This document shows, piece after piece, positions 40,655-63,762 of a DNA stretch of 64,000 nt; positions within the stretch are counted from its first letter, which is position 1, and each line of letters starts with the position of its first letter. The stretch lies in the NCBI GenBank assembly GCA_021815405.1, contig JAKAGV010000003.1:248001-312000 (forward strand), given 5' to 3'. The notes below the pieces were generated by a model. That model saw only the letters and a list, made by a program, of their open reading frames with translations. It was not told the DNA's origin and ran no database searches. The DNA is from Bacteroidota bacterium. Its GTDB lineage: Bacteria > Bacteroidota > Ignavibacteria > Ignavibacteriales > Ignavibacteriaceae. Made by a program: the position numbers and the translations under genes.

Positions 40655-40769
40655 ACCGGAGTAACAGTAAATGCAGAAGCTGTGCAATTTATACTTAATA
40701 AAAATTCCTTTTTTTGTTCATCAATTGATGACGAAATGAATACTACATATCGAAGGGACATAAGAATTA

Positions 40770-41339: not shown

Positions 41340-41354
41340 AATAGGAGTTATTAT

Positions 41355-42158
41355 ATGACCAATGAATGGGAATTGAAAGATTTTATACTTGAAATAGGAA
41401 GAAGAATTTGGACTAGAGGATTTGTAGCCTCAAACGACGGTAATATTTCGATAAGAATAAATGATAGAGAAGTACTTACAACGCCTCACGGTGTAAGTAA
41501 GGGATTCATGACGAAGGATATGATAATTAAAACCGATATGACCGGCAAAGTCATTTCAGGTAGTTCTAAATATCATCCATCAAGTGAGCTTAAAATGCAT
41601 CTGGAAGTATATAAAGAACGTCCCGATATTAAGTCAGTAGTTCATGCTCATCCTCCTTATGCAACAAGCTTTGCCGTCGCAGGTATTCCGCTTAACAAGT
41701 GTGTCTTACCGGAAGCGATTATAATAATAGGTGCAGTTCCAACCGCAAAGTATGGTTTGCCATCAACAAAGGAAATTCCAGATGCAATTAGAGAACATAT
41801 AAAAAATTCGGATGCAATCTTGCTTGAAAACCATGGAGCACTAACATTAGGCGGAGATTTATTATCTGCATATCATAATATGGAAACATTGGAACTAACG
41901 GCAAGTATTGTATGGAAAGCAATTCAATTAGGTAATTTAAATGTATTGCCTGAATATGAAAGAGACAGGTTAATGGGATTGAGAGAAAAGTTTAAATTAC
42001 AAGGTCGTGTTGCAACATGCGATGCAACTCCAATGCCCAGCAGTGAATCTCCGCGTTTTGATTTCAAGGAATTATCGGGACTCAATAATAATATTACAGA
42101 ACAAGCTATTAAAGAGATTACGGGAAGAGTACTTGCTAAGATTAAATTAAAAGATTAA
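41355..42158 (+). CDS. Class II aldolase for rhamnulose/fuculose 1-phosphate, BMC-targeted
   Basis: 267 residues. Class II aldolase/adducin fold with S-N-D-G-N-I-S-I-R, S-S-E-L-K-M-H-L-E-V-Y (catalytic Glu), zinc ligands V-V-H-A-H-P-P-Y and L-L-E-N-H-G-A-L. Reaction: L-rhamnulose-1-phosphate (and probably L-fuculose-1-phosphate) gives DHAP plus L-lactaldehyde. After the fold ends near residue 215 there is a Ser/Pro-rich linker and the terminal helix I-T-E-Q-A-I-K-E-I-T-G-R-V-L-A-K-I-K-L, an encapsulation-peptide type tag. So lactaldehyde may be made at or inside the shell. It lies 15 bp behind the BMC-T gene. Confidence 0.92.
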   Translation: MTNEWELKDFILEIGRRIWTRGFVASNDGNISIRINDREVLTTPHGVSKGFMTKDMIIKTDMTGKVISGSSKYHPSSELKMHLEVYKERPDIKSVVHAHPPYATSFAVAGIPLNKCVLPEAIIIIGAVPTAKYGLPSTKEIPDAIREHIKNSDAILLENHGALTLGGDLLSAYHNMETLELTASIVWKAIQLGNLNVLPEYERDRLMGLREKFKLQGRVATCDATPMPSSESPRFDFKELSGLNNNITEQAIKEITGRVLAKIKLKD

Positions 42159-42189
42159 AAGATTACCTAACCTTAAGATTTAGAATTTA

Positions 42190-43410: not shown

Positions 43411-43422
43411 TATAGAAGCTAA

Positions 43423-44979: not shown

Positions 44980-45001
44980 TTTTATATGAATAGAATTTGA
45001 T

Positions 45002-45547
45002 ATGGACCTTATTGAAAAATTTATTTCAAATGCAGAAGAAGCAGCTGCTACAGTAAAAATAATAAGGGCAAATGCGAACTCATTGAATGATGCTTTAATT
45101 GCAGCTACAGAAAATGAATTAGTGCTTTTTGCAGGACCTGACGATTTAGATCCGGAATTGTTTTCAATATTTATATCGAATAAAAATGTTATTACGAAAC
45201 CTACTAAGGAACAGCTATCAATAATTAGTACCGGCGTTACAGATGCTTTTTGTGCAGTAGCGTCTACCGGTTCAGTTTGTGTTTCGATAACTAAAAATTT
45301 GTCCAGTCCTGTAAGTATGCTAACACAAAAGCATATTGTTGTTATTGACAGCAGAACAATTATTCCAAGACCTCGAGATATTTTTTCTGAAAACTATTTG
45401 GAAGGTAAAGGATTAAAGCGAAGCTTCTCGATAATAACAGGTCCCAGTGCAACTGCTGATATGGGGCCCCTGGTTAGAGGAGTTCACGGTCCAGGTAAAC
45501 TGCATATTATAATTATTGATTCATTTGACGAAATGCATGTTAGATAA
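45002..45547 (+). CDS. lutC: LutC/LldG-type LUD-domain protein of lactate oxidation
   Basis: 181 residues with a single LUD (DUF162) domain: N-S-L-N-D-A-L-I, G-V-T-D-A-F-C-A-V-A-S-T-G-S-V-C and I-I-T-G-P-S-A-T-A-D-M-G-P-L-V-R-G-V-H-G-P, the last being the strongest family signature. LutC is one of three parts of the LutABC (LldEFG) iron-sulfur L-lactate oxidase. The stop is directly followed by the ATG of the LutB-LutA fusion. In this operon it would help oxidise lactate formed from rhamnose to pyruvate. Confidence 0.9.
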   Translation: MDLIEKFISNAEEAAATVKIIRANANSLNDALIAATENELVLFAGPDDLDPELFSIFISNKNVITKPTKEQLSIISTGVTDAFCAVASTGSVCVSITKNLSSPVSMLTQKHIVVIDSRTIIPRPRDIFSENYLEGKGLKRSFSIITGPSATADMGPLVRGVHGPGKLHIIIIDSFDEMHVR

Positions 45548-47764
45548 ATGGAAAACATTAACGATTATATCCTTCATCCAAGGCAGGTAGCCGACAAATC
45601 TTCTAAAGAGACTCTTCAAAAGGCAATAAAATTAGCGCTTGATGTTGAGACAGATGCTTTGCGACTTAATACTCAGACGTTCAACACCAACCGATATAGG
45701 GCTGTTAAAAGATTAGATGACTATGAGGAATTAAAAAACCGTGCTCGTTTAATTAAAGAAAAATCAATTAAGAATTTGATTCCATTGATCTCTAAAGTAA
45801 CCAAAGCAATTGAAGCCCGCGGTGGTAAAGTATTTTATGCAAAAACGAAAGAAGACGCTACTGCTTACATTAAAAAAATTTGTTTATCCCGGGAAGCGAA
45901 GCTTGTTGTAAAATCGAAATCAATTACGTCTGAAGAAATCGGTTTAAATTCAGATTTGGAAAAAGCGGGCATTGAAGTTGCAGAAACAGATCTAGCTGAA
46001 TTCATTTTGCAGGTTTCTAAAGAACAGCCCTCTCACAATGTAGCTCCTGCTATACATAGAAGCAGAGAAAGTATTTCCGAATTATTTAAGAGAAACTTTA
46101 AAACCGAGAAAAAGTTAGATACAGGTGAAGAACTAACCGAGTTTGCGAGAGACATCCTAAGACAAAAATTTCTTAAAGCAGACATAGGAATTAGCGGGGC
46201 TAATTTTGTTGCGGCAAAAGAAGGGTCTATATTATTGGTTGAAAGCGAAGGAAACATTAGGCTAACCACTCAGCTTCCTGCTGTTCATATAGCAATTGCC
46301 GGTATAGAAAAGATAATTCCAAGTAAAAAGGATTTTGGTGTATTCATAGAGCTCCTGGCTGCAAGCGGTACCGGTCAGCCTCTAACATCTTATACTAATA
46401 TAATAGAGCCGCCATTAGATTTGCCGGTTCTTAACTTAAACGGAAGAAATGACGGTAAAAGAGAGTTTCACTTAGTTCTTATTGACAATGGACGAATGCA
46501 AATGCGAGACGATGAAGAGTTAAAAGAAGCTCTTTATTGTATAAGATGCAGTGCTTGTATGAATTCATGTTCAAATTTTCAAACGGTAGGAGGGCATGCA
46601 TTCGGCGGTGAATGTTATACGGGCGGAATTGGCGGTGCCTGGACAGTTGCGACTACCGGCAGTTTAGAAAAAGCAAGGTTTGCAGAATTGTGTACTGGAT
46701 GTTCAAGGTGTATTCCAAACTGTCCGGTCCTTATTGATATACCTAGACTCAACACAACCATAAAAAATCGTTTAATTAAAGCAGACGGGGGAGCTTCATT
46801 ACAAAAATTATTTTTCGGAAATTTTTCAAAGTTAGGTAAATATTCATCTATAGTTCCCACATTAACAAATTTTATAGTCAGCCTTTCGATAAGCAAATTA
46901 CTGATGGAAAAAATAGTTGGGCTTGATAAGCGCCGTCCTATTCCCAGGTTTGCTAATAAGACATTGAAGAGACAATATAAATTATACCGAAAAAGTAATA
47001 GTATACAGATTTCAGATGTATTTAAAAAAGGATTAGTTTTATTCGCAGATGTTTTTACGAATTATAATAATCCACAAGTGGGGATGGCAACAGTTCGAGT
47101 CTTTGATAAATTGGGAATACCAATTAAACTCAGCAAAATTATTGAAGATGGAAGAGCAGCTCAATCACAGGGACTAATTGAATCTGCAAGGCAAAGTGCT
47201 ATCAAACTTGCAGGGTATCTTGAAGAGATTATCGATAGCGGGAAAGAGATAATTGTCGCTGAACCAAGTGTACTTGCATTGTTTAGATATGATTACAAAA
47301 AATTAATTAATAACGATTATCTTTTTTCAAAGCTTGAGAAGCACACTTATGATCCGATTGAATATTTAAATAAGTTACTAAACCATTCTGAGTTAGATTT
47401 GACCGGCAAAATTGAGATTAAAAAGCTTAACTCAGACAAAATTTTTTACCATGCACATTGTCAATTAAAGACAATTGGAGCAGGTAATACAGCGTTAGAA
47501 TTTTTTAATAAGCTAGGATTCATAGTTGAAATATCTAATGTAGAATGCTGCGGTATGGCGGGTAGCTTTGGCTATAAAAAAGGGTACTATGATATAAGCA
47601 AAAACATAGGGAATGAACTGATAAAGCAGATTAAAAAAGTAGCGACAAGAGATAGCAAGAAAGTTATATTAGCAAGCGGTACATCTTGTAGAGAACAGTT
47701 AAGGGATGAATTAGAAGAAACTATTTACCATCCCATAGAATATCTGGAAAAAATATTAAAATAG
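45548..47764 (+). CDS. LutB-LutA fusion, iron-sulfur L-lactate oxidase subunit
   Basis: 738 residues. Residues ~1-310 are a LUD domain (LutB-like: S-G-A-N-F-V-A-A-K-E-G-S). Two 4Fe-4S motifs follow (Cys331-x2-Cys334-x2-Cys337-x3-Cys341; Cys382-x2-Cys385-x2-Cys388-x3-Cys392). The C-terminal ~270 residues are a CCG-domain region like LutA/GlpC, with V-E-C-C-G-M-A-G-S-F-G (Cys667-Cys668) and a final A-S-G-T-S-C-R. LutA and LutB are separate in Bacillus; here they are one chain. The first CCG motif is not evident: Y-K-K-G-L-V-L-F-A-D-V-F stands where LutA has its opening cysteine strand. With LutC it should oxidise L-lactate to pyruvate, delivering electrons to quinone or a carrier. Last gene of the BMC operon. 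Confidence 0.85.
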   Translation: MENINDYILHPRQVADKSSKETLQKAIKLALDVETDALRLNTQTFNTNRYRAVKRLDDYEELKNRARLIKEKSIKNLIPLISKVTKAIEARGGKVFYAKTKEDATAYIKKICLSREAKLVVKSKSITSEEIGLNSDLEKAGIEVAETDLAEFILQVSKEQPSHNVAPAIHRSRESISELFKRNFKTEKKLDTGEELTEFARDILRQKFLKADIGISGANFVAAKEGSILLVESEGNIRLTTQLPAVHIAIAGIEKIIPSKKDFGVFIELLAASGTGQPLTSYTNIIEPPLDLPVLNLNGRNDGKREFHLVLIDNGRMQMRDDEELKEALYCIRCSACMNSCSNFQTVGGHAFGGECYTGGIGGAWTVATTGSLEKARFAELCTGCSRCIPNCPVLIDIPRLNTTIKNRLIKADGGASLQKLFFGNFSKLGKYSSIVPTLTNFIVSLSISKLLMEKIVGLDKRRPIPRFANKTLKRQYKLYRKSNSIQISDVFKKGLVLFADVFTNYNNPQVGMATVRVFDKLGIPIKLSKIIEDGRAAQSQGLIESARQSAIKLAGYLEEIIDSGKEIIVAEPSVLALFRYDYKKLINNDYLFSKLEKHTYDPIEYLNKLLNHSELDLTGKIEIKKLNSDKIFYHAHCQLKTIGAGNTALEFFNKLGFIVEISNVECCGMAGSFGYKKGYYDISKNIGNELIKQIKKVATRDSKKVILASGTSCREQLRDELEETIYHPIEYLEKILK

Positions 47765-47775
47765 ATTTTTTTTTC

Positions 47776-47831
47776 TTGACAATAATTAAAAATATGAGTA
47801 GTTTCCTTAAGGCTTTTCGAAAAGGATTAAG
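47776..47831 (+). promoter_or_regulatory. Promoter and LacI-type operator 3 (before rhaA)
   Basis: TTGACA at 47776-47781, a 17-bp spacer, TAGTTT at 47799-47804, one base, then the 26-bp palindrome at 47806-47831 (CTTAA/TTAAG arms, core TTTCGAAA). The geometry is identical to operator 1. Confidence 0.8.
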
Positions 47832-47903
47832 TGATCTATATTAAAAAGCAAATTGCCCATGTGAGTAACGTGGCGAAGCTGCATCTTAAATAAAAAAATT
47901 TAT

Positions 47904-47936
47904 TAATATACTTAAAGGATTTCGAAAAGGATTGAG
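47904..47936 (+). promoter_or_regulatory. LacI-type operator 4 (second site before rhaA)
   Basis: The -10-like TAATAT at 47904-47909 stands one base before a fourth copy of the palindrome at 47911-47936, with one mismatch in the right arm (TTGAG for TTAAG). It lies 105 bp behind operator 3, a whole number of helical turns, so repressor looping or a second promoter is possible. Confidence 0.72.
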
Positions 47937-48005
47937 CAGTACGCCATATTAAAATTGAAAGATTTAAATGATTAGAATTATTGAAAATAAACCGGAGTAT
48001 AAGCA

Positions 48006-49286
48006 GTGATAAATAGAAAATCAATTGAAGCTGAATATAAATTAGCGAAGGACCAATATGCCGGCTTTGGCGTCGATACGGATGAGGCGTTAAGCAGGCT
48101 TGATAAAATAAATATAAGTTTACATTGCTGGCAGGCAGATGATGTAGGCGGCTTCGAAATCCCTGATGCTATACTTAATGGCGGCGGGATACAGGTTACG
48201 GGAAATCATCACGGAAAGGCTAATACCATAAGCCAGCTGCGGAGTGACATAGAAAAGGTGATGAAACTGCTTCCCGGCAGGCAGCGCTTAAATCTTCATG
48301 CTATTTACGGCGATTTTAAGGGTGATAAAATAGAACGTGATCAAATTGAAATAAAACATTTTCAGAGTTGGATAGATTGGGCAAAAAAACTTGGGATAGG
48401 TATGGATTTTAATCCGACATGCTTTTCCCATCCTTTTGCAAATGACGGTTTTACTCTTTCAAGTAAAGATGAAAAAATAAGAAATTTTTGGATTGAGCAT
48501 GTAAAGCGTACTAGAAAAATTGCAGCCGAAATGGGAAGGCAACTTGGTACACCGGCTGTTAACAATATATGGATACCAGACGGTTCTAAAGATACTCCGG
48601 TTGACAGGTATACTCATCGGACCTTATTAAAGGAATCGCTCGATGAAATATTTAGGGAAGAATATCCCAAAAAGTATCTTAAGGATTCATTGGAGAGTAA
48701 GCTCTTTGGAATAGGTTCAGAGTCGATGGTAGTTGGTTCTCACGAATTTTATTTAGGTTATGCAGTCAAAAACAACAAACTAATTTGTTTAGATAACGGA
48801 CATTTTCATCCTACGGAACAAATAGGTGATAAGATTTCCTCCCTGTTGCAATTTATTGATGAATTGTTATTGCACATCAGCAGGGGAGTAAGATGGGACA
48901 GTGATCATGTGGTAATATTTAATGATGAAGTTCAGCTTATAGCCCAAGAGATAGTACGTGCAAATGCTTTAAATCGTGTTAGAATCGGACTTGATTACTT
49001 CGACGCCAGTATAAACCGTATAGGAGCTTATGTTGTTGGTGCCCGGGCTGCACAATTGGCTTTCCTTTATGCTCTTCTTGAGCCGATTGGAATATTAAAA
49101 GATTTTGAAGAAAACGAAAAATATTTTGAGCGCCTTGCATTTCTTGAGTTATTGAAGACAATGCCTTATGGAACTGTTTATAATTATTACTGTTTGATGA
49201 ACAATGTACCTGTTGGAGAGGAATATATAGATGAGATTAAGAAGTACGAAGTTGAAATTTTGAATAAGAGGGGTAAGATAAATTAA
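48006..49286 (+). CDS. rhaA: L-rhamnose isomerase
   Basis: 426 residues from GTG 48006 (G-G-A-G at about 10 nt upstream). Family signatures of RhaA: I-S-L-H-C-W-Q-A-D-D-V-G-G-F-E near the N-terminus, D-F-N-P-T-C-F-S-H-P, I-G-S-E-S-M-V-V-G-S-H-E-F-Y-L-G-Y, D-N-G-H-F-H-P-T-E and W-D-S-D-H-V-V. These supply the metal-binding Glu/His/Asp residues. Reaction: L-rhamnose to L-rhamnulose, Mn2+-dependent, in the cytosol, the first step of the pathway completed by rhaB and the aldolase. It has its own double-operator promoter, separate from the BMC operon. Confidence 0.95.
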   Translation: MINRKSIEAEYKLAKDQYAGFGVDTDEALSRLDKINISLHCWQADDVGGFEIPDAILNGGGIQVTGNHHGKANTISQLRSDIEKVMKLLPGRQRLNLHAIYGDFKGDKIERDQIEIKHFQSWIDWAKKLGIGMDFNPTCFSHPFANDGFTLSSKDEKIRNFWIEHVKRTRKIAAEMGRQLGTPAVNNIWIPDGSKDTPVDRYTHRTLLKESLDEIFREEYPKKYLKDSLESKLFGIGSESMVVGSHEFYLGYAVKNNKLICLDNGHFHPTEQIGDKISSLLQFIDELLLHISRGVRWDSDHVVIFNDEVQLIAQEIVRANALNRVRIGLDYFDASINRIGAYVVGARAAQLAFLYALLEPIGILKDFEENEKYFERLAFLELLKTMPYGTVYNYYCLMNNVPVGEEYIDEIKKYEVEILNKRGKIN

Positions 49287-49403: not shown

Positions 49404-51260
49404 ATGAAGATGATAACAATGAAAGATTCACAGTCCAATAAAAAACTATCAATCTTGCATATAGTTGTAAGTTGTGTAATCATCCTTGCATGCTCTGCCT
49501 GGTCGGAACGGGTAATAGGTGCAGAGGTATTAACAATAAAGTCTAATATTTCTACTGTGCAAATGGGACATTCTATCCAAGTTACTGCACATTTAGAATT
49601 GAAACCAGGCGTTTCCTTAAGAAACTATTTGCTTTTACCATATGTGAACAATCGCAGATGGGGTTCCCAGGAAAGAACGGATAAAAATGGAAATGCAACT
49701 TTCTTGTTGCCATTACCAAATCCAGGTGATGAACATATTCAAGTAATGGGAGTTAAAGCAGAGCCTCATAATTGGATGGGAATCTCTGATATGGATTTAT
49801 TGGTAGTGGGCAATTTAATGCCAACAAAAGGGGGAGTGCGTTCTAACGAGATCGATATCAAAGTTCTAAGGAGGCAAATGCCAAAGTTACCAAATGACGG
49901 TCATCTATATTGCATCCAATATGAAAATTGGTTCGGGAAATCATCATGGAATACTGCTGAAGCGGTGCCACTTATCGGATTTTATGATTCACATAACGAA
50001 GATGTAATTCGCCAACATATCTTATGGTTTGTGGATACAGGCATCAATTCAATAATGTTAGACTGGTCTAATCATCTCTGGGGCGATACAAGCTGGAATC
50101 AAAGAGGTGAGGGGGCGAGAACAATTATCAGCAATACAACTTTTTTCCTAGGTGTATTGGCAAAAATGCGCGATGAAGGAATTGATGTTCCAAAAGTAAT
50201 TTTGATGTCTGGTCTAAGCAACGGGCCGCCTGCGACGATGAATGCATTAAACGAAGAGCTGGATTGGATTTATAAAAATTACATTTTGAATCCTAGATTT
50301 AAAGGTCTATTCCAGATTTATGATGGCAAGCCTTTGATGATCGTTCTCGATACAGGTATAATTGGAAATAAGAAAGGTACTACTGAATCTGCTTTTAGAG
50401 TTCCATTTTTTAAAGAGACGCTAGCATTATCGAAATCAAAGCTTGATGCTTTTAGAGCTGCTCAAGGACCGGTTAATGATACTCATTTTACAATACGTTT
50501 TATGTCATCTCAGAATCAGCTTACCGAACACAATCAGTTAGGTTATTGGTCATGGATGGATGGACAAATAAATCCATTAGTAACATACTATAATGGAAAA
50601 CCAGAAGCTATTACAGTTACTCCTTCTTTTTTTGGTGCTGAAGGATGGACAGCGCATGATGCATACGGTAGATTAGGAGGAACAACATACATCGAGACGT
50701 TCAAAGATGCTCTTAAATACAGACCTCGGGTTATATTTTTGCATCAATTCAATGAATTTACAGGTCAAAGCAAAGGACATGGTTATGGAAAAAACAAGGA
50801 CTGTTTTCTTGATGAATATAATGTAGAGTTAAGCGATGATATTGAGCCAGTGTCATTAACAGCGGAAGGTTATCGGGGCGACAAAGGAGGTTGGGGTTTT
50901 TATTATCTTAATTTAACTCATGCTTTAATAAATATTTTTCGCGGGGATCCAAAAGGAACTACAATTTTAGCAGTTCAAGCTCCCAAGATTTCAAGGGATT
51001 ATATAAAATTAAAGTGGTCATACATTGGTGTTCCGCCTAAAAGCTATTCACTTTCGATCGATAATATAATAGTTCATAAAAATCTTAAAAAAGCTAAGTA
51101 TGAAATTTCAGCAAAAGATTTAACAATGGGCGTCCACACTCTTACAATAAAAGCTAATGGAGTAAGCACTCACTACGCTCTTTCAGAAAAAGAATTTGAT
51201 GTACCAACAGAATCATCGATACCTGTTAGTGTTAGTCAATCATTGTATATAAAAAATTAA
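49404..51260 (+). CDS. Putative exported glycoside hydrolase of GH71/GH99-like TIM-barrel type
   Basis: 618 residues. The N-terminal hydrophobic segment ends I-I-L-A-C, a lipobox, so it may be a lipoprotein; a normal signal peptide cleaved after V-I-G-A is the alternative. Residues ~40-150 form an Ig-like domain. The rest looks like a (beta/alpha)8 hydrolase: Y-C-I-Q-Y-E-N-W, H-I-L-W-F-V-D-T-G-I-N-S-I-M-L-D-W, Y-D-G-K-P-L-M-I-V-L-D, L-H-Q-F-N-E-F. It then has F-L-D-E-Y-N-V-E-L-S-D-D-I-E-P-V, a motif shared with the protein at 56914. Substrate unknown; the neighbourhood suggests a rhamnose-containing glycan. A G-G-G-G-G-G run precedes the start by about 20 nt. Confidence 0.65.
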   Translation: MKMITMKDSQSNKKLSILHIVVSCVIILACSAWSERVIGAEVLTIKSNISTVQMGHSIQVTAHLELKPGVSLRNYLLLPYVNNRRWGSQERTDKNGNATFLLPLPNPGDEHIQVMGVKAEPHNWMGISDMDLLVVGNLMPTKGGVRSNEIDIKVLRRQMPKLPNDGHLYCIQYENWFGKSSWNTAEAVPLIGFYDSHNEDVIRQHILWFVDTGINSIMLDWSNHLWGDTSWNQRGEGARTIISNTTFFLGVLAKMRDEGIDVPKVILMSGLSNGPPATMNALNEELDWIYKNYILNPRFKGLFQIYDGKPLMIVLDTGIIGNKKGTTESAFRVPFFKETLALSKSKLDAFRAAQGPVNDTHFTIRFMSSQNQLTEHNQLGYWSWMDGQINPLVTYYNGKPEAITVTPSFFGAEGWTAHDAYGRLGGTTYIETFKDALKYRPRVIFLHQFNEFTGQSKGHGYGKNKDCFLDEYNVELSDDIEPVSLTAEGYRGDKGGWGFYYLNLTHALINIFRGDPKGTTILAVQAPKISRDYIKLKWSYIGVPPKSYSLSIDNIIVHKNLKKAKYEISAKDLTMGVHTLTIKANGVSTHYALSEKEFDVPTESSIPVSVSQSLYIKN

Positions 51261-51309
51261 ACGTGTTTTTATAAAACTCTGTCTTATTTAATTATTTGAA
51301 AGGATAAGC

Positions 51310-54309
51310 ATGACAAAAAAAATTATGATAGAATTTTTTTTATTCTTTTTATTTATCAGTTTGCAGGCTGGTAATTTATTTGCACAAAATAATCAAAATG
51401 GAATATTGGAGGGGACTGTTAGAACTGCAGACACTAAAAGCGCACTTCCATATGCTAATGTAGTAATTCTTGGAACTAATAATGGTACCGCATCGGATTT
51501 AAATGGAAATTTTATTATCAGAAATATAACTGCTGGTGTGCATAAGATTGGAATAACTTATATAGGATATGAGCAAAAAATTGAAACAGTTACTATAAAA
51601 CCAAATAAAACATTACGAATTAACATATATTTGCAACCTCATAGTATTAAAGCTAATGAAGTAGTTGTAACTGCGCAAGCAAAAGGGCAATTGCATGCTA
51701 TAAATGAACAAATCAATTCAAAAGATATTGTTAGTATTGTAGCACCTGATCGTTTGCAAGAAAATCCGGATGCAAACATTGCCGAAGCGATAGGTCGCCT
51801 TCCAGGCATATCACTTGTTAGGTCTGGTGGCGAAGGGCAAGGTGTTGTTATAAGAGGATTGGATCCAAAATATAGTGAAGTTGAAATTGATGGGATAGAA
51901 ATACCTTCTACAGATCCAACTAATAGAAGTACTAATATATCAGGCATTTCGCAATATGTTTTACAGGGAGTTGAAGTGTTTAAGACTCTAACCCCCGACA
52001 TGGATGGTGACGCTACAGCAGGTACAGTTAATTTACAATTGAGTGAAGCACCGGTGGGTTTTCATTTTAACCTTATGACTCAAGGAGGTTATAATCACTT
52101 AAATAATTATTGGAAAAATTATAATATTGATGCCAATCTTAGCAATAGATTTTTTGATAATAAACTCGGGATTTTGCTGAATATCGGTTCTGAACGAGTT
52201 AATAGAAGCGATCAAAACATGACCAGTGATTATGGTACTGTTTCAGCAATAACACAAAATAATCAATTTCCACAATTATTTGTTAACGATATTAACTTGA
52301 GCGATAATATTCGAATAAATTACAGATCATCTGCAACCTTAGTAATGGATTATAAATATGGTATGAATTCCAAAATTGTCTTTTCTAACTTTCTTTCTCA
52401 CTCATCGCAAGATTTTACGGGCGCATTAAAAGGATTTGATTTACACGATGCTAATAGAACTGTAACTGATTTGTTTAATCAAAACATTGGCCCTGGTAAC
52501 GAACTATATCTTAGTTCATTAAAAGGCGAAAATAAATTCGGCTCTATTGATCTATCATATGGTGCTGCCTTTTCCCAGACACATATTTATACGCCAAAGA
52601 ACAGATCTTGGTATTTTGCATATGCCGGAGGAGTTCCTTCTGCATATACAGATACGACAAATAGAAGCTTACCTTTAGGTACTATCGTTAATGCAATAAA
52701 TGAAAATCTTTCGACAACTGCAGCTTTAAAAAATACAATAATTACTAATGTTAATGTATCATCCGAAGATGACTTGGATCAGATAACAAATCTATACTTT
52801 AACGCAAAATTTAATTTTCAATTTGCTAATAATGTTTCAGCTTATATAAAATTAGGTGCAAAATATAAAAGCGAAAATAAGAAAAGATATTATGCAAATT
52901 ATTATGAAGGATTGTCAACTGGTAGTTTCCCACAATTCGGAGATACTGCATCGAAATACCTGCCCTGGATTGATGTTGAAGGAAGACTTGTATCAGCTAA
53001 TGGTTTTCAAGATCATATTGAAAATAGTTTTCTAAATGGACAATATGATTATGGCTGGTACCCAAACTTTAACCGGTTAAATGAACTTTTGGATTGGTAT
53101 TCAAATTGGTCTAATTACTATTGGGGACATCCAGGCGCCGGAATGAGCCCCCAAATGTTTTTAAGACCAGATTATACCGCTCAGCAAGCAAACAATTATA
53201 AATTTAATGATAAATATTTTGGTACCTATTTAATGGGAGAATTGGATTTAGGTAAAATGATTACTTTTATTCCAGGAGTTCGTTATGAAAAAGTCACCGA
53301 CAATTTGGATGGTTGGTGGACTATAAATATTCCTTTCCCCACGGCACCATATGGTCATTCGGCTTCAAATACACATGAAGATGATTATTATTTGCCAGAC
53401 GCCCATTTGATAATACGCCCGAGTAATTGGATACAAATCCATTTGGCATATACGAGTTCATTAAATCGACCGGATTATTTTAGCCTAATTCCAATTACAT
53501 ATGTAAATACGGGCATCTCTCCTAATACACTTAGTGAGGGTAATCCTAATCTAAAGCCAGAATATTGGAAAAATTTTGATCTTCAATTTGCTTTCTTTAC
53601 TAATAAAATAGGCTATCTTGGGGTTAATGGGTTTTATAAGATTGCTAAAAATGTTATATGGACACCTGTGCATGTCAGAATGCCCGGCGATCCTCTCCCC
53701 GCTGGCTTTGAAAATGTTTTTCAATCGAATGCTGTTATAGATATAACGCAGCCTGTTAATATGGACTATTCTGTTTTTATAAGGGGTTTAGAATTAGAAT
53801 GGCAAACTAATTTTTGGTATTTGCCAAAACCGTTAAGCTATTTTTCGTTATATGCAAATTATACCCTGATGAACTCTTCTACAAAATATCCAAGATATAC
53901 AACGCTAAATGAACAAGTAGGAACAGATAATAGAGGTAGGCCTATTTACAAATTAGTCACCACTTATCATGTTGATGATGGTTCAATGGTAAATCAGCCA
54001 AATAATATCGCTAACGTTTCCTTAGGTTTTAACTATGAGGGATTAAACGTATGGCTCTCATATGAATTTTCCGGTGAAAAGCTTACCGCATTTAATCCGG
54101 AACCCTGGTTTAATACTAATAGTTTAAGTTTTCAAAGATTGGATTTACAAGTAACACAGAAGCTACCTATTAAAAATCTCGAGGTGATGTTAAACGTAGC
54201 GGATATTAATAATCCTACGGAAACTCAAAATCTTGTCGGAGATCCAAGACCAACTTCGCAAGAAAACTATGGATGGACTGTTGATCTTGGATTAAGATAT
54301 GGTTTATAG
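51310..54309 (+). CDS. TonB-dependent outer-membrane receptor
   Basis: 999 residues. Signal peptide (ends N-L-F-A-Q-N), then a CarboxypepD_reg-like domain (G-T-V-R-T-A-D-T-K-S-A-L-P-Y-A-N-V and G-Y-E-Q-K-I, residues ~33-118). A plug domain follows (I-A-E-A-I-G-R-L-P-G-I-S-L-V-R-S-G-G-E-G, V-I-R-G-L-D-P, D-M-D-G-D-A-T-A-G-T-V-N-L), then a 22-strand barrel with the usual L-N-R-P-D-Y-F and E-G-N-P-N-L-K-P-E. It resembles the large oligosaccharide-transporting receptors of the Caulobacter type more than a SusC/SusD pair, and no SusD gene is adjacent. It would import glycan fragments, powered by TonB, into the periplasm. Confidence 0.9.
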   Translation: MTKKIMIEFFLFFLFISLQAGNLFAQNNQNGILEGTVRTADTKSALPYANVVILGTNNGTASDLNGNFIIRNITAGVHKIGITYIGYEQKIETVTIKPNKTLRINIYLQPHSIKANEVVVTAQAKGQLHAINEQINSKDIVSIVAPDRLQENPDANIAEAIGRLPGISLVRSGGEGQGVVIRGLDPKYSEVEIDGIEIPSTDPTNRSTNISGISQYVLQGVEVFKTLTPDMDGDATAGTVNLQLSEAPVGFHFNLMTQGGYNHLNNYWKNYNIDANLSNRFFDNKLGILLNIGSERVNRSDQNMTSDYGTVSAITQNNQFPQLFVNDINLSDNIRINYRSSATLVMDYKYGMNSKIVFSNFLSHSSQDFTGALKGFDLHDANRTVTDLFNQNIGPGNELYLSSLKGENKFGSIDLSYGAAFSQTHIYTPKNRSWYFAYAGGVPSAYTDTTNRSLPLGTIVNAINENLSTTAALKNTIITNVNVSSEDDLDQITNLYFNAKFNFQFANNVSAYIKLGAKYKSENKKRYYANYYEGLSTGSFPQFGDTASKYLPWIDVEGRLVSANGFQDHIENSFLNGQYDYGWYPNFNRLNELLDWYSNWSNYYWGHPGAGMSPQMFLRPDYTAQQANNYKFNDKYFGTYLMGELDLGKMITFIPGVRYEKVTDNLDGWWTINIPFPTAPYGHSASNTHEDDYYLPDAHLIIRPSNWIQIHLAYTSSLNRPDYFSLIPITYVNTGISPNTLSEGNPNLKPEYWKNFDLQFAFFTNKIGYLGVNGFYKIAKNVIWTPVHVRMPGDPLPAGFENVFQSNAVIDITQPVNMDYSVFIRGLELEWQTNFWYLPKPLSYFSLYANYTLMNSSTKYPRYTTLNEQVGTDNRGRPIYKLVTTYHVDDGSMVNQPNNIANVSLGFNYEGLNVWLSYEFSGEKLTAFNPEPWFNTNSLSFQRLDLQVTQKLPIKNLEVMLNVADINNPTETQNLVGDPRPTSQENYGWTVDLGLRYGL

Positions 54310-54366
54310 TTCAATAAGTGCCTTTTCTAATTACTCTTATTAATTATTTTAATTATCAAAGTACAA

Positions 54367-54416
54367 TTGTTTTGTCGAGGGAGGTGAGGAAAAGTTATTT
54401 TATTAAGACAAAACAA
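54367..54416 (+). promoter_or_regulatory. Hairpin with purine-rich loop behind the TonB-dependent receptor
   Basis: A perfect 10-bp stem, TTGTTTTGTC with GACAAAACAA, encloses a 30-nt loop beginning GAGGGAGGTGAGG. There is no T-run on the 3' side. It lies in the 227-bp gap before the next gene. It could be an mRNA processing or stability element, or a terminator for the other strand. Confidence 0.5.
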
Positions 54417-54536
54417 CAATAAGGTCTATTTTGATTCTTATTTCCAGGAAGGAGGCAAATATAAAAATTCATTTCAAATTTGCAATTTTTTATTAATCAA
54501 CATTATTTATCTAAATCATTATTATTAGGAGATAAT

Positions 54537-56789
54537 ATGAACAAATTATCTGTTTTTCTGATTTCTCTTTTTTTTAGTGCTACAATATTCGCACAAACTT
54601 ATTTAGATGTTACCCCAGGGTATGGAACATTAAATCAGGCAATTTCACAAAACCAGGGTAATGTTATTTATCGGTTACAAGCTGGTCAGTGGTACGGCTT
54701 AAATGGAGTGATACAAAATTCAACATTTAAATTAATTATTATTGGTACAACACCACCAAATGATACAACAATGCCAGCGATGATTCAGGTTGGTTCAGAT
54801 GCAAATGGAGTCCCATTTTCTAATATGATTTCAGCATTTGATGATGTAACATTGAAAAATCTTTTTATCGTTGATGCAAACACTAACAATGTTCAAGCTA
54901 ATGGACCTGTTATTACTATGCAAGCTAAATGTACGGTTAAAATAGACAGCGTAGTATTTGATCCACTTGGAGTTAATAATCAGTTGATTGATTGCGGAAG
55001 TGCCACTAATCCAAATGTATTTATGACAAACAGTATGGTTTTACGTTCCGGTCAAGAAACTGATCCAAATGATGGAAATCTTTTTACTATTTCAGGTGCT
55101 CCAACAAACGGCGTAGATACTCTTTACATAGAGAATAATACATTCGTCAATACGGGTACATGGTTTTTTAATAATGAAAATTTTAATACAGGTCGTGATA
55201 ATTTTATTTGGGTTAATCATAATACATTCATTTTTCATAAAAGCCAGCTGTTCTGGACATGGTACACAAATGACCAGTTCTTTACAAACAATTTGCTGTT
55301 CGACTTCAATACTCAACCATGGGTAATGGCTTGGAATGCTTTTTTTCCAGATGGTTCTGCAATACCTGAAACAAAAGAATCAAGATTTAGTCTTATTAAT
55401 GCAGACACACTTTTTACAACTGATGCAAATGGAAATAAAGTAAGAGAAACATTTCCTTCCATAAGAAAAAATTTTGCAGAATATAATCTTGATTATACAG
55501 ATCCTAGGATAGAAGCAATCCCTACGACTTGGGCAGAATCACATACTTTAAATAATGATGGAAAAACGCCGATACCACTATCTTACCTAATGCCCTTAGT
55601 TCAGCCAAAAGATTCTAGTAATGTCAGTAGAGAGGCTCAAATTTTTAACGATCATATTAATTTCCCGGGCTTTAAATATGGCAACACATACACAGATGTA
55701 GATCCGCAATGGACAGAACAAAAAATTTATCAACTTCAAGATTCACTTTCAGTTTGGTCATTATTAGGGTGTGAATTACACACATGGGGTTTTGATCCTT
55801 CCAATTTACCGCCTGTTTCGCAATGGCCGCTGTATTGGTGGAACGCCGACTCAAACGGTATGGGCAATCCAACAAAATGGCCCCGTTTTGATGGTACATA
55901 TAAAAACCCACAAATTCTAACAGCATCAATTGAAGGCTTGCCTTTAGGCGATTTGAACTGGTTCCCGGCAGCAAAAGCAACATGGCAAGCTCATAAGACT
56001 GAAATTATGAATTATATATTAGCAGAAAATGTCAGTCCGATGAATCTTACTAGCTCTGAAACTGCTGTTTCATCTTCAAATGCAGCAGCATCACTAGGTG
56101 CTAGTAATGTGATTGACAATGATCCAAATACTTTTTGGGCAAGTGCTCCTCATGCAAGTGCAAATGCGGAGGAATGGATTTATATAGATCTAGGTTCTTC
56201 CCAAAATGTTACCAAAGTTGTATTGGTTCCAAGAGCAGTCAATGATACTGTGGTTTTGTCTTTCCCTGAAGATTTTAAGATTCAATACAGTTCAGACGCA
56301 AGTAATTGGACAGATGTACCGGGTCAAAGTTATACTAATTATCCTATTCCTTCTAATAATGATGGAGAAGTTTTTACATTTGCATCTCCGGTTAATTGCC
56401 GTTATGTAAGAGTTGATGCAACTAAGCTTCGCGTAGATGATAGCGGCACAAATTATTATTTCCAATTAGCTGAGTTTCACGTATATAACACAGTGACTGC
56501 AGTTAAAAGCGATAAAGAGATTGTTAAAGACTATAATCTTTCACAAAATTATCCTAATCCTTTTAACCCATCAACCCGAATTGATTTTAATCTACAAAAA
56601 TCCGGAATGACTAAATTGGAAGTCTATAATATTCTTGGTCAAAGAGTTGTTACTTTAATTAACGGAAATCTAAATGCTGGTCAACATAGTGTAGTTTTTG
56701 ATGCGGACAATCTACCTTCCGGAATTTATCTATACACGCTTTCTTCCGGCAGCTTCATGGTTACTAAAAAGATGATGCTTCTCAAATAA
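54537..56789 (+). CDS. Secreted protein with beta-helix-like part, F5/8C domain and T9SS sorting domain
   Basis: 750 residues from ATG 54537, which has a strong A-G-G-A-G-A site and gives a clean signal peptide (F-S-A-T-I-F-A-Q); a TTG 57 bases upstream is open but poor. The N-terminal ~300 residues resemble a right-handed beta-helix (L-N-Q-A-I-S-Q-N, V-T-L-K-N-L-F-I-V-D, L-Y-I-E-N-N-T-F-V-N). Residues ~505-660 are an F5/8 type C (discoidin) carbohydrate-binding domain (V-I-D-N-D-P-N-T-F-W-A-S, Q-L-A-E-F-H-V-Y). The end is a type A sorting domain (S-Q-N-Y-P-N-P-F-N-P-S-T, M-M-L-L-K). It is probably a surface polysaccharide lyase or binding protein; no catalytic residues can be assigned. Confidence 0.72.
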   Translation: MNKLSVFLISLFFSATIFAQTYLDVTPGYGTLNQAISQNQGNVIYRLQAGQWYGLNGVIQNSTFKLIIIGTTPPNDTTMPAMIQVGSDANGVPFSNMISAFDDVTLKNLFIVDANTNNVQANGPVITMQAKCTVKIDSVVFDPLGVNNQLIDCGSATNPNVFMTNSMVLRSGQETDPNDGNLFTISGAPTNGVDTLYIENNTFVNTGTWFFNNENFNTGRDNFIWVNHNTFIFHKSQLFWTWYTNDQFFTNNLLFDFNTQPWVMAWNAFFPDGSAIPETKESRFSLINADTLFTTDANGNKVRETFPSIRKNFAEYNLDYTDPRIEAIPTTWAESHTLNNDGKTPIPLSYLMPLVQPKDSSNVSREAQIFNDHINFPGFKYGNTYTDVDPQWTEQKIYQLQDSLSVWSLLGCELHTWGFDPSNLPPVSQWPLYWWNADSNGMGNPTKWPRFDGTYKNPQILTASIEGLPLGDLNWFPAAKATWQAHKTEIMNYILAENVSPMNLTSSETAVSSSNAAASLGASNVIDNDPNTFWASAPHASANAEEWIYIDLGSSQNVTKVVLVPRAVNDTVVLSFPEDFKIQYSSDASNWTDVPGQSYTNYPIPSNNDGEVFTFASPVNCRYVRVDATKLRVDDSGTNYYFQLAEFHVYNTVTAVKSDKEIVKDYNLSQNYPNPFNPSTRIDFNLQKSGMTKLEVYNILGQRVVTLINGNLNAGQHSVVFDADNLPSGIYLYTLSSGSFMVTKKMMLLK

Positions 56790-56840
56790 AGAATATCAAT
56801 TCTTTTGTCTTTTTCCAATTTTGTTGAATAGATAAATATC

Positions 56841-56880
56841 AAGTGGTTCATTTTTTCAAAGGAATGAACCACTTTTATTA
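56841..56880 (+). terminator. Intrinsic terminator
   Basis: A perfect 12-bp stem, AAGTGGTTCATT with AATGAACCACTT, a 10-nt loop, then TTATTATTT. It lies 51 bp behind the F5/8C gene and separates it from the next hydrolase gene. Confidence 0.85.
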
Positions 56881-56913
56881 TTTAAATCGTTACATACGTA
56901 TGGTGATGTATTT

Positions 56914-59475
56914 ATGAAAATAAAATTAAAACTTTTGAAGTTATTATTATTCCTTCTTTTTCCATTACTTCTTAAAGCACAAACATGGAATGTGAATCCG
57001 GATTTCTGGACAGCGACCGACGCACTTGGCAGAGTAACGCCTAATGAAAATGAAACTGGCTTAACTAAAACCGGGAAATATGTCGGAATGTTTTATTGGA
57101 CATGGCACACAGATGGTAATGCTGATTTTTCGCCGGTCATAGATATTTCCAAGATTCTTAAACAAGATCCCGGCGCCGCTACTGATTTGAATGACCCGGC
57201 ATGGGATGGAATCATAAATGGTGGGGTTTACTGGTGGAGCGAACCATTGTTTGGTTACTACCGGACTACTGATGATTGGGTTTTGCGTAAGCATGCCCAG
57301 ATGCTTGCCAATGCCGGTATAGATGTAGTCTTTTTTGATTGTACGAACGGCAGTCTTACATGGAAATCCTCATATACCGAATTATTAAAGGTATGGGAAC
57401 AAGCAAGACAGGAAGGTGTAAAAACGCCCAAAATTGCTTTTATACTTAATTTTGGACCGACAGCAACGTCCTTAACTGAAATTACGGAACTTTATAATGA
57501 TTTGTACCAGCCCGGATTATACAAAGATTTGTGGTTTATGTGGAATGGTAAGCCATTGATAATGGCATATCCCGAAATGCTTGTAGCATCCAGCAATACC
57601 GCCGGACTTAAGTTTGCTGCCGATTCATCTTTTGTTGGAGTTGATGCTTGTTGTCCGAGCTGGGCTAACAATATAGGTAATCTTACTTTAAAATTATATA
57701 AATGGAATACAGATTATCCAACCACTATATCGGGTACACCCATTGCGGATTCAACTTTTATGAATTTTAATGACAACGCTCGACTTATATTACATTTCAA
57801 ACCGCAACCCTCTGGAAATTATTATTGGGAGTTAAGTAATGCTACGGAGGTAGTAGGCGTTTGGAAGTGGAATAATACTAAAGACCCTGTTACCAGTTTT
57901 TATAATGGTAAAGCTGTAACAGATGGAAATTATGACAGCAAAATTTATTACGCAGCCGGTGCTGTTATCAATTTAACTAATGATGATGGTACCGGGCATA
58001 CTCCTGTTCAAATTCCGCCGGGAACTAATAGTACTCTTATAGATAGCATAAAAAACTTTTTCACATTCCGCCCAGGTCAACCAGATTACGTTAGTGGTCC
58101 AAACGGTCTGGATGCGAACACTCAATGGGGCTGGCTTGAAGATTATCCACAGCACGGTTATGTAAGCAAAACCGGCGGTGGTTATGAAGAAATGCCGGTT
58201 GGAGTATCTCAAAATGCCAGCAGCGCAAGTGGCGGGCATTGTTGTGCTTTTAATCAGCCTAATTCTTATGGACGAAGCTATACACACGCAAACGGTCAAG
58301 ATGCGGATACGAATGCATATTTGTATGGAGAAAATTTCCAGGAGCAATGGTCTCGTGCATTTGCTCTTAAACCGGATCTTGTATTTGTCACCGGATGGAA
58401 TGAATGGATTGCAGGAAGATGGGATACTAAATCCTGGCCAAATCCATACGCTCCTTTTTCATTTGTAGATGAATATAACTGGGAAAAAAGCAGAGATATA
58501 GAACCGGTAAAATCATGGGGGGATAATGCAGATGATTATTATATGCAATTGGTAGACAACGTTCGTAAGTACAAAGGAATGCAAGCGCAGGAGCCTGCTT
58601 CCGGTCGTAAGACTATTAATTTAGACAGCTTGAATGATTGGACAGATGTTCAGCCTGAATATTTGGATTACAGGGGAGATACGATTTGGCGTAATTCGAA
58701 GGGGCAAGGAGATAGTCTTGTATATACAGATTCAACGGGACGCAACGATATAGTGTCTGCTAAAGTAGCTCGCGATAGTGAATATGTTTATTTTCTTGTA
58801 GAGACTGCTGACACACTAACACCTAAAACCGATCCTAAATGGATGCGGCTTTGGATAGATATTGACCGCAATAAAGCAACCGGGTGGGAAGGATATGATT
58901 ATGTAATCAACCGGATAAATCCGGATGATTCTGCGATAGTAGAGAAGAGTACAAGCGGTTGGAATTGGACTAAAATAGGTTCTGCCGCATATACAATACA
59001 AGGCAATGTATTGGAATTGAAAGTAGAACGGTCATTGCTAAATGTAGAAGGTAAGAGGTTGGACTTTGAGTTTAAGTGGAGTGATAACTGTGAGAATGAT
59101 GGCAACATTATGGATTTCTACGTTCATGGAGATGCAGCTCCGGATGGCAGGTTCAATTATGCTTATTCAACTACCAGCATTACTGGTGTTACAGAACATG
59201 CGGAACAACCTACTAAATTTACTTTATCACAAAACTATCCAAATCCCTTCAACCCGGCTACAACCATTAGCTACAGCGTACCCCAAAAGGAATTGGTTAC
59301 TTTAGAAGTCTTTAATATGCTTGGGCAAAAAGTAGCTACATTAGTAGATAGAGTACAAAATTCGGGCAATCATAAATTAAACTTCAATGCTTCAAATCTT
59401 GCATCCGGCGTTTATTTGTATAGGATGCAATCAACCAATTTTACGTTAACAAAAAAAATGGTCCTCCTTAAATAA
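56914..59475 (+). CDS. Secreted putative GH71/GH99-like hydrolase with CBM9-like and T9SS sorting domains
   Basis: 853 residues. Signal peptide (L-L-F-P-L-L-L-K-A-Q). The barrel region (residues ~35-555) contains K-Y-V-G-M-F-Y-W-T-W-H, H-A-Q-M-L-A-N-A-G-I-D-V-V-F-F-D-C, M-W-N-G-K-P-L-I-M-A-Y-P, V-T-G-W-N-E-W-I-A-G-R-W and F-V-D-E-Y-N-W-E-K-S-R-D-I-E-P-V. The last motif and the G-K-P-L-(I/M) segment are shared with the 618-residue protein at 49404, so the two are distant paralogues. Residues ~565-750 look like a CBM9/DOMON-type sugar-binding domain (V-Y-F-L-V-E-T-A-D, W-I-D-I-D-R-N-K-A-T-G-W). The end is a type A sorting domain. It is probably an endo-acting enzyme on a surface glycan; the substrate is not known. 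Confidence 0.7.
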   Translation: MKIKLKLLKLLLFLLFPLLLKAQTWNVNPDFWTATDALGRVTPNENETGLTKTGKYVGMFYWTWHTDGNADFSPVIDISKILKQDPGAATDLNDPAWDGIINGGVYWWSEPLFGYYRTTDDWVLRKHAQMLANAGIDVVFFDCTNGSLTWKSSYTELLKVWEQARQEGVKTPKIAFILNFGPTATSLTEITELYNDLYQPGLYKDLWFMWNGKPLIMAYPEMLVASSNTAGLKFAADSSFVGVDACCPSWANNIGNLTLKLYKWNTDYPTTISGTPIADSTFMNFNDNARLILHFKPQPSGNYYWELSNATEVVGVWKWNNTKDPVTSFYNGKAVTDGNYDSKIYYAAGAVINLTNDDGTGHTPVQIPPGTNSTLIDSIKNFFTFRPGQPDYVSGPNGLDANTQWGWLEDYPQHGYVSKTGGGYEEMPVGVSQNASSASGGHCCAFNQPNSYGRSYTHANGQDADTNAYLYGENFQEQWSRAFALKPDLVFVTGWNEWIAGRWDTKSWPNPYAPFSFVDEYNWEKSRDIEPVKSWGDNADDYYMQLVDNVRKYKGMQAQEPASGRKTINLDSLNDWTDVQPEYLDYRGDTIWRNSKGQGDSLVYTDSTGRNDIVSAKVARDSEYVYFLVETADTLTPKTDPKWMRLWIDIDRNKATGWEGYDYVINRINPDDSAIVEKSTSGWNWTKIGSAAYTIQGNVLELKVERSLLNVEGKRLDFEFKWSDNCENDGNIMDFYVHGDAAPDGRFNYAYSTTSITGVTEHAEQPTKFTLSQNYPNPFNPATTISYSVPQKELVTLEVFNMLGQKVATLVDRVQNSGNHKLNFNASNLASGVYLYRMQSTNFTLTKKMVLLK

Positions 59476-62058: not shown

Positions 62059-63762
62059 GTGAAATATTATATCTTTATGGTAATTATTTCGTGTTTCCTT
62101 TATTTTATGGGTTGTAATAAAACAATTGTTCAACCGCAAGAAACGACGACTAGTAAAACGATTTCAAAGCTCAGCACGGATGTACCAATAACAAGTGTGG
62201 CAGCTTCTTCGCAATTATGGCCGGACTCTAATGCTATTGACGGCGATACAACAACTATTTGGAGCTCTAATACTCATGCTTCAGCAGGTTCTACTGAATG
62301 GATCGCCTATTGGTTTAACACTTTTTATAATATTAATTATATTGAAATGTATCCAAGATATGCTGGGGGTCCAGCCTTAGGCTTTCCGGTACAATTTGAT
62401 GTTTATTATTCAAACGGAAGCAGCTGGGTGCACGAAAGTTCTTATACTTCTTTTCCAACACCACAATCCGACTGGATAATACTGCCTCTACCCTCTACAG
62501 TGAATGCCAATGGAATACAAATTGTTGCTACTCAATTAGGAGTAGATGATTATAATAATTATGTATTTCAATTAGCTGAAGTTGGAACCGGGTACAATTC
62601 AGGTTACAATAATTTTCAGTTCATTCAAAATAACGGCGTTAGCCAGCAGAACGAAATAAGAAATATAGGTTCAGGTTCTTTTGACCCCAATAAACTAAGT
62701 AATTGGAATTATGACATAGGGAATCCAATTATTACTGCCGTTCCAGGCGGTAATAGCAATATATATGCTCCGAGTATTGTAAATAACGGAGGAGCTTGGA
62801 ATATTTATTTTGGAGGTTGGGACGGTACTACTGACGATCATGATCGAATATCAATCACTGTAACTAATGATGATTTTTTAACATTCGGTACGCATTACGT
62901 AATGATTGATCATGGAGTTTTTAATCATGTAAATAATGAAACAGCTATTAAAAAGCCTGACAATACATGGTTAATGTATTATACTGCGGATTCATATTCT
63001 CCTCCATTGAATAAACCTTGTTATGCAACCTCTCCCGATGGAGTAAGTTGGACTCCGAATGCAGGCAGCACAAATTATTTAATAAATATGAGTGGTTATA
63101 ATAATTGGAATAATGCAGATGTAAATGGCTCTAATGTTATTTATTTAGAAAACGGAGTATATAATCTTTATTTTGATGATTTCAATTATGCTACTACAGG
63201 GCATGCCGATGCTGTTCATCATGCAACAAGCACGGATGGAATTAATTTTACTTATACTGGCGATGTGTTGAATGAAAGTTGGATTGCACAGGATGTAAAA
63301 ATCTTTACTTATAACGGTTCAAATTATTATTTAATGTGCCTGCATAATAATACTAATTCGCTTAGGTATAGCGTTGGTACAAGCCCGACATCCTTTTCTG
63401 CAAGTCAATTGCTGCTTAATAATCTTAATTCAGCTGATCAATATATTACTTCGGCTGGCTGGGTTGCTAATAACAATAGACTTTATGGCGTATTGTATGG
63501 CGCAGGACCAAGCTCAACTCTTACGCAAAATGCCATTCATGCAAAATGGTTGCAGAAAAAGGTAATATTTATTAGTGATGATGGAAAGGTACGTTGGGGT
63601 GATACTGAGAGAGCCTATGGTCCCGATAGAATAAGGCTGTTTATGAACACTAATATTGAAACCGGACATTTTTATGTGTATGATACTGACGGCAGTACGC
63701 TGTTATATACAAGTCCTCAAATTACTATGCGATCTGGTGATGTATGGCAGTATGTTCCGTAA
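62059..63762 (+). CDS. Lipoprotein with F5/8C domain and GH43-like five-bladed propeller
   Basis: 567 residues from GTG 62059 with a strong A-G-G-A-G-G site. The signal ends in a lipobox (Y-F-M-G-C-N), so lipid attachment at Cys19 is expected. Residues ~45-175 are an F5/8C domain (A-I-D-G-D-T-T-T-I-W-S-S-N and Q-L-A-E-V). From about 215 on there is a GH43/GH117-like propeller: N-I-Y-A-P-S-I-V-N-N-G-G-A-W, I-Y-F-G-G-W-D-G, N-N-E-T-A-I-K-K-P, N-L-Y-F-D-D-F. It probably removes side-chain sugars such as arabinose or galactose from a pectin-like glycan. Catalytic residues cannot be assigned with certainty. Confidence 0.75.
   Translation: MKYYIFMVIISCFLYFMGCNKTIVQPQETTTSKTISKLSTDVPITSVAASSQLWPDSNAIDGDTTTIWSSNTHASAGSTEWIAYWFNTFYNINYIEMYPRYAGGPALGFPVQFDVYYSNGSSWVHESSYTSFPTPQSDWIILPLPSTVNANGIQIVATQLGVDDYNNYVFQLAEVGTGYNSGYNNFQFIQNNGVSQQNEIRNIGSGSFDPNKLSNWNYDIGNPIITAVPGGNSNIYAPSIVNNGGAWNIYFGGWDGTTDDHDRISITVTNDDFLTFGTHYVMIDHGVFNHVNNETAIKKPDNTWLMYYTADSYSPPLNKPCYATSPDGVSWTPNAGSTNYLINMSGYNNWNNADVNGSNVIYLENGVYNLYFDDFNYATTGHADAVHHATSTDGINFTYTGDVLNESWIAQDVKIFTYNGSNYYLMCLHNNTNSLRYSVGTSPTSFSASQLLLNNLNSADQYITSAGWVANNNRLYGVLYGAGPSSTLTQNAIHAKWLQKKVIFISDDGKVRWGDTERAYGPDRIRLFMNTNIETGHFYVYDTDGSTLLYTSPQITMRSGDVWQYVP

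Follow-up and report, generated by a model that had tools for sequence, protein, structure and literature searches.

GH71/GH99-like proteins next to an L-rhamnose microcompartment locus in a Bacteroidota bacterium: putative hydrolases with a candidate displaced catalytic acid

The window analyzed here, a stretch of 64,000 nucleotides from a Bacteroidota contig, contains two open reading frames on the plus strand, at positions 49404–51260 (618 aa) and 56914–59475 (853 aa), which are denoted below by their start positions. Both frames, and the motifs quoted for them in an earlier sequence-only reading, are present letter for letter: FLDEYNVELSDDIEPV and FVDEYNWEKSRDIEPV, HQFNEF and GWNEW, GKPLM and GKPLI in the two proteins. 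Direct comparison of the two protein sequences by BLASTP yields 52.4 bits (E = 5e-11), with a second matching piece (35.0 bits) that spans the motif block, so that the resemblance is not due to chance. The genes and domains of the region are as follows:

33692..49286 (+), complete-looking L-rhamnose microcompartment locus
49404..51260 (+), GH71/99-like protein, 618 aa, with a signal-like N-terminus, a barrel at about residues 146–519 and a C-terminal beta-rich stretch
51310..54309 (+), TonB-dependent receptor, between 49404 and 56914
54480..56789 (+), F5/8 type C and T9SS protein
56914..59475 (+), GH71/99-like protein, 853 aa, with a signal-like N-terminus, a barrel, a C-terminal beta-sandwich and a T9SS tail
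57592..57999 (+), barrel insert of 56914, about 136 residues (model residues 205–340, pLDDT <50)
58597..59178 (+), C-terminal beta-sandwich of 56914, resembling CBM9 in weak fold matches
59236..59463 (+), T9SS type A sorting domain of 56914
62059..63762 (+), F5/8 type C protein

The microcompartment locus encodes a LacI regulator, PduL, BMC and EutN/CcmL shell proteins, an aldehyde dehydrogenase, an RnfC-like protein, a class II aldolase, acetate kinase, an FGGY kinase, LUD proteins and L-rhamnose isomerase; the end of RhaA is separated from the start of 49404 by 117 bases. The PVM-type gene set (shell proteins, class II aldolase, aldehyde dehydrogenase and PduL) is thus found together, along with the rhamnose isomerase and FGGY kinase that are also common to the fucose/rhamnose microcompartments of this type, and the likeness of this neighbor of the GH99-like genes is one of gene set, not of shell-protein phylogeny. 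PVM microcompartments are described as processing fucose or rhamnose (PMC8217296, PMC8857213), and the class II aldolase as their signature (PMC8217296). Downstream of the window, there are one full GH78 gene, two GH78-like genes, GH127, GH2 pieces and additional paralogs of the family. Of two genomes of the same genus, one (G002) carries RhaA followed by a short homolog and then a 56914-like gene, and in the other (G011), a GH78 gene adjoins the short homolog.

Several other features of this region were observed. The segment 22812–32594, directly before the rhamnose locus, is a mobile-looking island that encodes an integrase, a DUF2779/Cas4-like protein, the type I restriction proteins HsdR, HsdM and HsdS, and a transposase pair (rve and HTH_Tnp_1). 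Two open reading frames at 59733–61879 (346 and 369 aa, overlapping by 4 bases) encode paralogs of each other (33% identity over 292 columns, E = 1e-53) and have no Pfam match at E ≤1. The downstream GH2 gene (L016:13523-15388) is split over two adjacent reading frames and is possibly broken.

The two proteins differ in their accessory parts. The sorting domain previously noticed in 56914 is borne out by a match to PF18962 (49.4 bits, Pfam cut-off 27), and T9SS-tail matches are the only ones found for this protein in an NCBIfam search (E ≤1), which gave no match for 49404. The beta-sandwich that precedes the tail was also read as CBM9-like; Foldseek finds weak matches to 1i82 (E = 1.0e-3) and 7nwo (E = 2.1e-3), and a Pfam search at E ≤1 detects no CBM9. 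The insert of about 136 residues in the barrel of 56914 is present in one paralog (L016:15444-17999) and absent from another (L017:925-2772); it is also discernible by eye in L018:2521-3462, and the reading frame of L017:925-2772 stops without a T9SS tail. For 49404, a lipoprotein is plausible, judging by eye from the VIILAC sequence near the N-terminus; the front part of this protein, read earlier as Ig-like, has block pLDDT values of 23–43 in its model.

The earlier proposal that the two proteins are distant paralogs within a GH71/GH99-like barrel family agrees with the structural comparisons, with a barrel firmly predicted for 56914 only. The AlphaFold2 model of mature 56914, built from 75 sequences, is good except for the insert (pLDDT 81.7, pTM 0.82), and in VIA-align comparisons, GH99 structures come first with Z of 17.5–18.8 (4acy, Z 18.8, rmsd 4.7, 282 aligned), followed by 5ngw (Z 17.1), GH71 (Z 14.2–15.0) and then matches at ≤12.3. 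GH99 is also the best match in Foldseek, yet at an E of just 1.0e-3. The model of 49404 is poor (pLDDT 55.0), but the same families lead its VIA-align ranking: GH99 at Z 11.2–12.1, GH71 at 10.4–11.3 and 5ngw at 11.0, with the next row at 9.1.

The GH99 family of Pfam (PF16317) scores 16.0 and 14.8 bits for the two proteins, under the cut-off of 33. Searched against the sequences in PDB, 49404 has no match, and 56914 has two that are weak and unrelated (E = 0.64 and 0.8). Across the family, PF16317 matches 36 of 64 members at E ≤0.1 (best 1.2e-6) and is the closest Pfam family. Profile searches of PDB retrieved GH99 with 8 family members (E = 7.5e-10), with three 49404-type sequences (E = 2.6e-8) and with 64 barrels (E = 1.2e-4); the full-length profile of 75 sequences retrieved no GH99 at E ≤1. 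Alignment of the family profile with that of 8 bacterial GH99/71-like sequences by hhalign gave a probability of 97.6. Together, the fold and the profile homology place the family in the GH71/GH99 superfamily, although the full-length profile fell short. For GH71 (PF03659), there is no Pfam match to either protein at E ≤1, and none of the 32 genomes holding relatives has a match above the cut-off. Membership in GH99 proper was considered and rejected, given the scores below the Pfam cut-off and the lack of the E-x-x-E pair; WbsX (PF14307) was rejected as well, and neither protein matches it in Pfam at E ≤1. WbsX matches were found in 6 of 64 relatives at E ≤0.1.

For the active site, the comparison rests on the motif EWHE of GH99 and DYGE of GH71, as given in PMC13421300 and PMC11025385; mutants of the two GH71 acids are described in PMC12394665 as 200- to 15,000-fold impaired. 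In HMMER alignments, N-E-W is shared by the family and GH99 at the same place, and where GH99 has the second Glu of W-H-E-G, the family has the Ala of W-I-A-G. The codons of interest are:

50754..50756 (+), E451 of 49404, counterpart of the first ExxE Glu in GH99
50811..50813 (+), D470 of 49404, the loop Asp (D/E in 105/105 rows)
50838..50846 (+), D479-I480-E481 of 49404, the D-I-E-P block
58402..58404 (+), E497 of 56914, counterpart of the first ExxE Glu in GH99 (Glu in 105/105 rows)
58411..58413 (+), A500 of 56914, place of the missing second GH99 Glu (acidic in 0/105 rows)
58468..58470 (+), D519 of 56914, putative displaced catalytic acid
58495..58503 (+), D528-I529-E530 of 56914 (D528 in 100/105 rows, E530 in 100/105 rows)

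Conservation was counted over 105 of the 107 family rows, the 2 rows without this region having been dropped; the numbering is that of 56914. Position 497 is Glu throughout. One of the two seeds of the family scan, VTGWNEW, favors rows with this Glu; the 38 rows that lack the seed all have it as well. Positions 500 and 519 are outside every scan seed. At position 500, the rows have A (83), M (14), V (3) or, once each, S, N, G, K and R. Accordingly, the GH99 pair is absent, with 49404 reading NEFTGQ and 56914 NEWIAG, and so is the D-x-x-E pair of GH71, given that the first acid is invariably Glu and the second position is non-acidic in all 105 rows. Position 519, the D of DEYN, is Asp in 103 rows and Glu in the other 2. 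The next residue had been suggested as catalytic alongside the Glu of N-E-(F/W), but position 520 is Gln in 68 rows, Glu in 31 and something else in 6, and the Glu of DEYN, probably not catalytic, is rejected on this count. In contrast, the Glu of N-E-[FW] (E497 in 56914, E451 in 49404) is supported as a catalytic candidate by its alignment with the first Glu of GH99 and by its conservation.

The DEYNxExSxDIEPV block, described as conserved on the basis of the pair, occurs in both proteins but is less fixed in the family, where its usual form is [DE][EQ][FY]...S-R-D-[IVC]-E-P. The five exceptions at positions 528 and 530 form one clade with N-R-[TG]-I-Q-P-M (T-I-Q-P or G-I-Q-P in place of the block's D-I-E-P), which weakens the case for D528/E530 as a universal second acid. 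The first acid and the Glu of I-E-P (E497–E530) are spaced 16–48 apart in the family vs 8 in 20 of 24 references, the reference motif pattern being one that demands the second Glu; the other four references (L109, L110, L113 and L127) do not show the motif, and none of them scores over the cut-off of its own reference family. Tyr116, Asn145 and Trp405 are each present in 85 of 85 rows, and Arg386 in 84 of 85. Because the second acid of ExxE is lost, the loop is longer and D/E is fixed at position 519, we propose D519 as the candidate replacement acid.

Several known systems come close to the family. GH99 enzymes (BxGH99 4ad1, BtGH99 4acy and human MANEA) have in common with it the fold, P-x-x-G-x-Y and G-K-P-L, N-E-W and the later I-E-P, whereas the family is distinguished by the lack of the second ExxE Glu, the enlarged loop with a conserved Asp, the C-terminal beta-sandwich in the 56914 type and, in its own context, rhamnose rather than mannose genes. 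The GH71 alpha-1,3-glucanases (AnGH71C 9fnf and Agn1 8yfh) and the bacterial GH71/99-like proteins, of which PmGH99 is one (cd11575, PMC13421300), share the fold and have their first acid at the same position. Of the 8 bacterial GH99/71-like reference sequences, taken without assignment to a CDD family, 7 read N-D-[FY]-G-E-G. GH71 and these proteins keep D-[YF]-G-E, whereas the family has E-x-x-A/M and its loop is longer. Glyco_tran_WbsX (PF14307) has the similar motif W-N-E-W-x-(E)-x...L-E-P but, unlike the family, keeps the second Glu, and its hhalign probability against the family is 14.9. PDB entry 5ngw, annotated as a 'glycoside hydrolase-like protein', shares the fold (Z 17.1). In keeping with the earlier reading, which named no characterized member, none was recognized in searches of the openly licensed PMC literature. 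The superfamily itself is already known, with CDD GH99_GH71_like_3 cited and a paucity of information on 71/99-like proteins remarked upon in PMC13421300, and the family is therefore a variation on a type already familiar rather than a new one.

The family is apparently large and uncharacterized. A scan of a genome collection covering 84,980 species, with four paralogs from this genome as queries, found at least 558 confirmed relatives, of which 79 loci from Bacteroidota, Planctomycetota, Kiritimatiellota and Clostridia were kept. The description of the window's genes as two distant paralogs is correct as regards the homologous pair but understates the number: three more copies follow shortly after the end of the window (C12:322452-324995, 326930-328849 and 328995-330782), two of them with 72–73% identity to 56914 over the matched parts. 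In a tree of the 107 family rows and 8 references, built by a quick method in which long branches, that of 49404 included, are flagged, 56914 and two of its own paralogs fall inside a Bacteroidota group, and 49404 groups with two short proteins from the same genus (SH-aLRT 99). The closest relatives of 49404 among the sequences compared are proteins of 332–333 aa from two same-genus genomes (30.7% and 27.3% by BLASTP). A profile of the 49404 type (E ≤1e-10) detects, within the phylum, 1 of 395 genomes, which is the genome studied here, and BLAST finds 49404 in 4 of 59 relatives, this genome counted; the presence of the 49404 type is therefore patchy. No relative of this type was found in a scan of viral contigs, and a plasmid search with 56914 returned 5 records, in each of which the one place shown is confined to the C-terminal part of the query (residue 727 onward). 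High-scoring (>480 bits) and lower-scoring types of the family coexist in 29 of the 32 genomes that hold relatives, and occur together in 19 of the 65 family clusters of these genomes.

In four Dyadobacter/Larkinella loci (L034, L038, L041 and L043, about 1–11700; reading frames ≥120 aa), two SusC/SusD pairs are followed by two family members. A protein with DUF4959 and F5/8C domains adjoins the family in L027:6214-7845, with look-alikes from the same cluster in L028 and L030; PMC10434189 lists a B. thetaiotaomicron locus, BT2902–BT2906, that combines DUF4959, a TonB receptor and a protein called 'family 99-like'.

Another line of evidence on the potential substrate comes from the neighborhoods of the relatives. 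Of the 65 family clusters, 15, spread over 11 of the 32 genomes, have a GH106 or GH78 gene within 15 kb among the matches listed, which comprise 282 rhamnosidase places. The gene density would predict 5.84 such clusters (simulated p = 4e-4, with related genomes taken as independent and contig ends ignored). The control for general clustering of sugar genes consisted of GH92 alone, which, among the 150 places listed, is within 15 kb of 5 of the 65 clusters vs 3.01 expected (p = 0.18). RhaA is encoded in 19 of the 32 genomes, and in three of these (G441, G444 and G446), the listed coordinates put it no more than about 9 kb from family genes. Neighbors of the rhamnose type were found in 6 of 29 loci of Bacteroidota, 0 of 8 of Planctomycetota and Kiritimatiellota and 3 of 42 of Clostridia, counts that are based on single query proteins (that for GH106 from locus L025 itself) and on many short flanks. 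The sister clade of 56914 has such genes in 5 of 9 loci vs 1 of 20 in the other Bacteroidota (Fisher p = 0.005), a grouping made post hoc to which we give no evidential weight. The rhamnose link of the family across genomes is thus supported and is not universal: most loci lack rhamnose-type genes, so the idea that rhamnose unites all relatives is unsupported, and therefore the substrate may differ between subfamilies.

Taken together, these observations are best explained, with a probability of about 0.5, if 49404 and 56914 are hydrolases that are exported, act on a polysaccharide containing rhamnose and use a displaced catalytic acid. Both proteins would bind an extracellular L-rhamnose-containing polysaccharide in the cleft of the barrel and most likely cut it internally, by analogy with GH99 and GH71; the fragments would enter the cell through the TonB receptor and be trimmed by the alpha-L-rhamnosidases encoded downstream, and the microcompartment encoded upstream would degrade the L-rhamnose. 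In catalysis, the Glu of N-E-[WF] (E497/E451) would play the part of the first ExxE Glu in GH99, and the second acid, no longer at +3, would be supplied by the Asp on the enlarged loop behind it (D519/D470), possibly helped by D528/E530. Rhamnogalacturonan, on fragments of which an activity screen had been suggested, is compatible with this rhamnose context as a substrate.

The strongest competitor, although distinctly less probable, holds that these are hydrolases with this fold but that the substrate they have in common is a different polysaccharide of plants or bacteria, such as one rich in arabinose or fucose, with rhamnose only as a side-chain sugar in some loci. The scarcity of rhamnose-type genes across loci fits such a substrate, as do the GH127 beta-L-arabinofuranosidase genes near 3 of 29 Bacteroidota loci and in the cluster of this genome, the alpha-L-fucosidase in 2 of 88 neighbors scanned (of 124 listed, with the Clostridia neighbors left out) and the Dyadobacter/Larkinella arrangement; the enrichment of rhamnosidases near the clusters, among the matches listed, and the rhamnose catabolic operon directly upstream argue against it. 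It appears unlikely that the proteins are divergent GH99 endo-alpha-mannanases that act on a mannose-containing glycan, the missing Glu being replaced locally: GH99 is the closest fold and Pfam family, and GH92 alpha-mannosidases occur near a few clusters, but the Pfam scores are less than half the cut-off, the second Glu is missing in every row, the proximity of GH92 is not significantly enriched among the matches listed and the genes in the locus itself pertain to rhamnose, not mannose. Least probable are catalytically dead sugar-binding proteins or non-hydrolytic (lyase or transferase) derivatives of the old fold, as the universal loss of the second GH99 acid and the presence of the general motif in WbsX, an annotated transferase, might suggest, given that E497 and D/E519 are kept in all rows and that the near-invariant Tyr116, Asn145, Trp405 and Arg386 argue for a working active site.

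Within the preferred reading of hydrolases acting on a rhamnose-containing polysaccharide, a more specific version, in our opinion a long shot, is that of a new GH family, namely, endo-acting alpha-L-rhamnosidases derived from GH99/GH71 stock, with the acid moved from ExxE to the loop Asp. Alpha-L-rhamnosides and alpha-mannosides have the 1,2-trans-diaxial geometry in common, so that the 1,2-anhydro-sugar route of the GH99 kind might persist in such enzymes.

If the displacement of the acid is real, the family would illustrate clearly how, in nature, a catalytic residue can migrate while the fold stays the same. It would also supply a first step ahead of the rhamnose microcompartment, provided that its substrate is a rhamnose polymer. 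The members in the four Dyadobacter/Larkinella loci, because they directly follow the two SusC/SusD pairs, are the first candidates for cutting the polymer.
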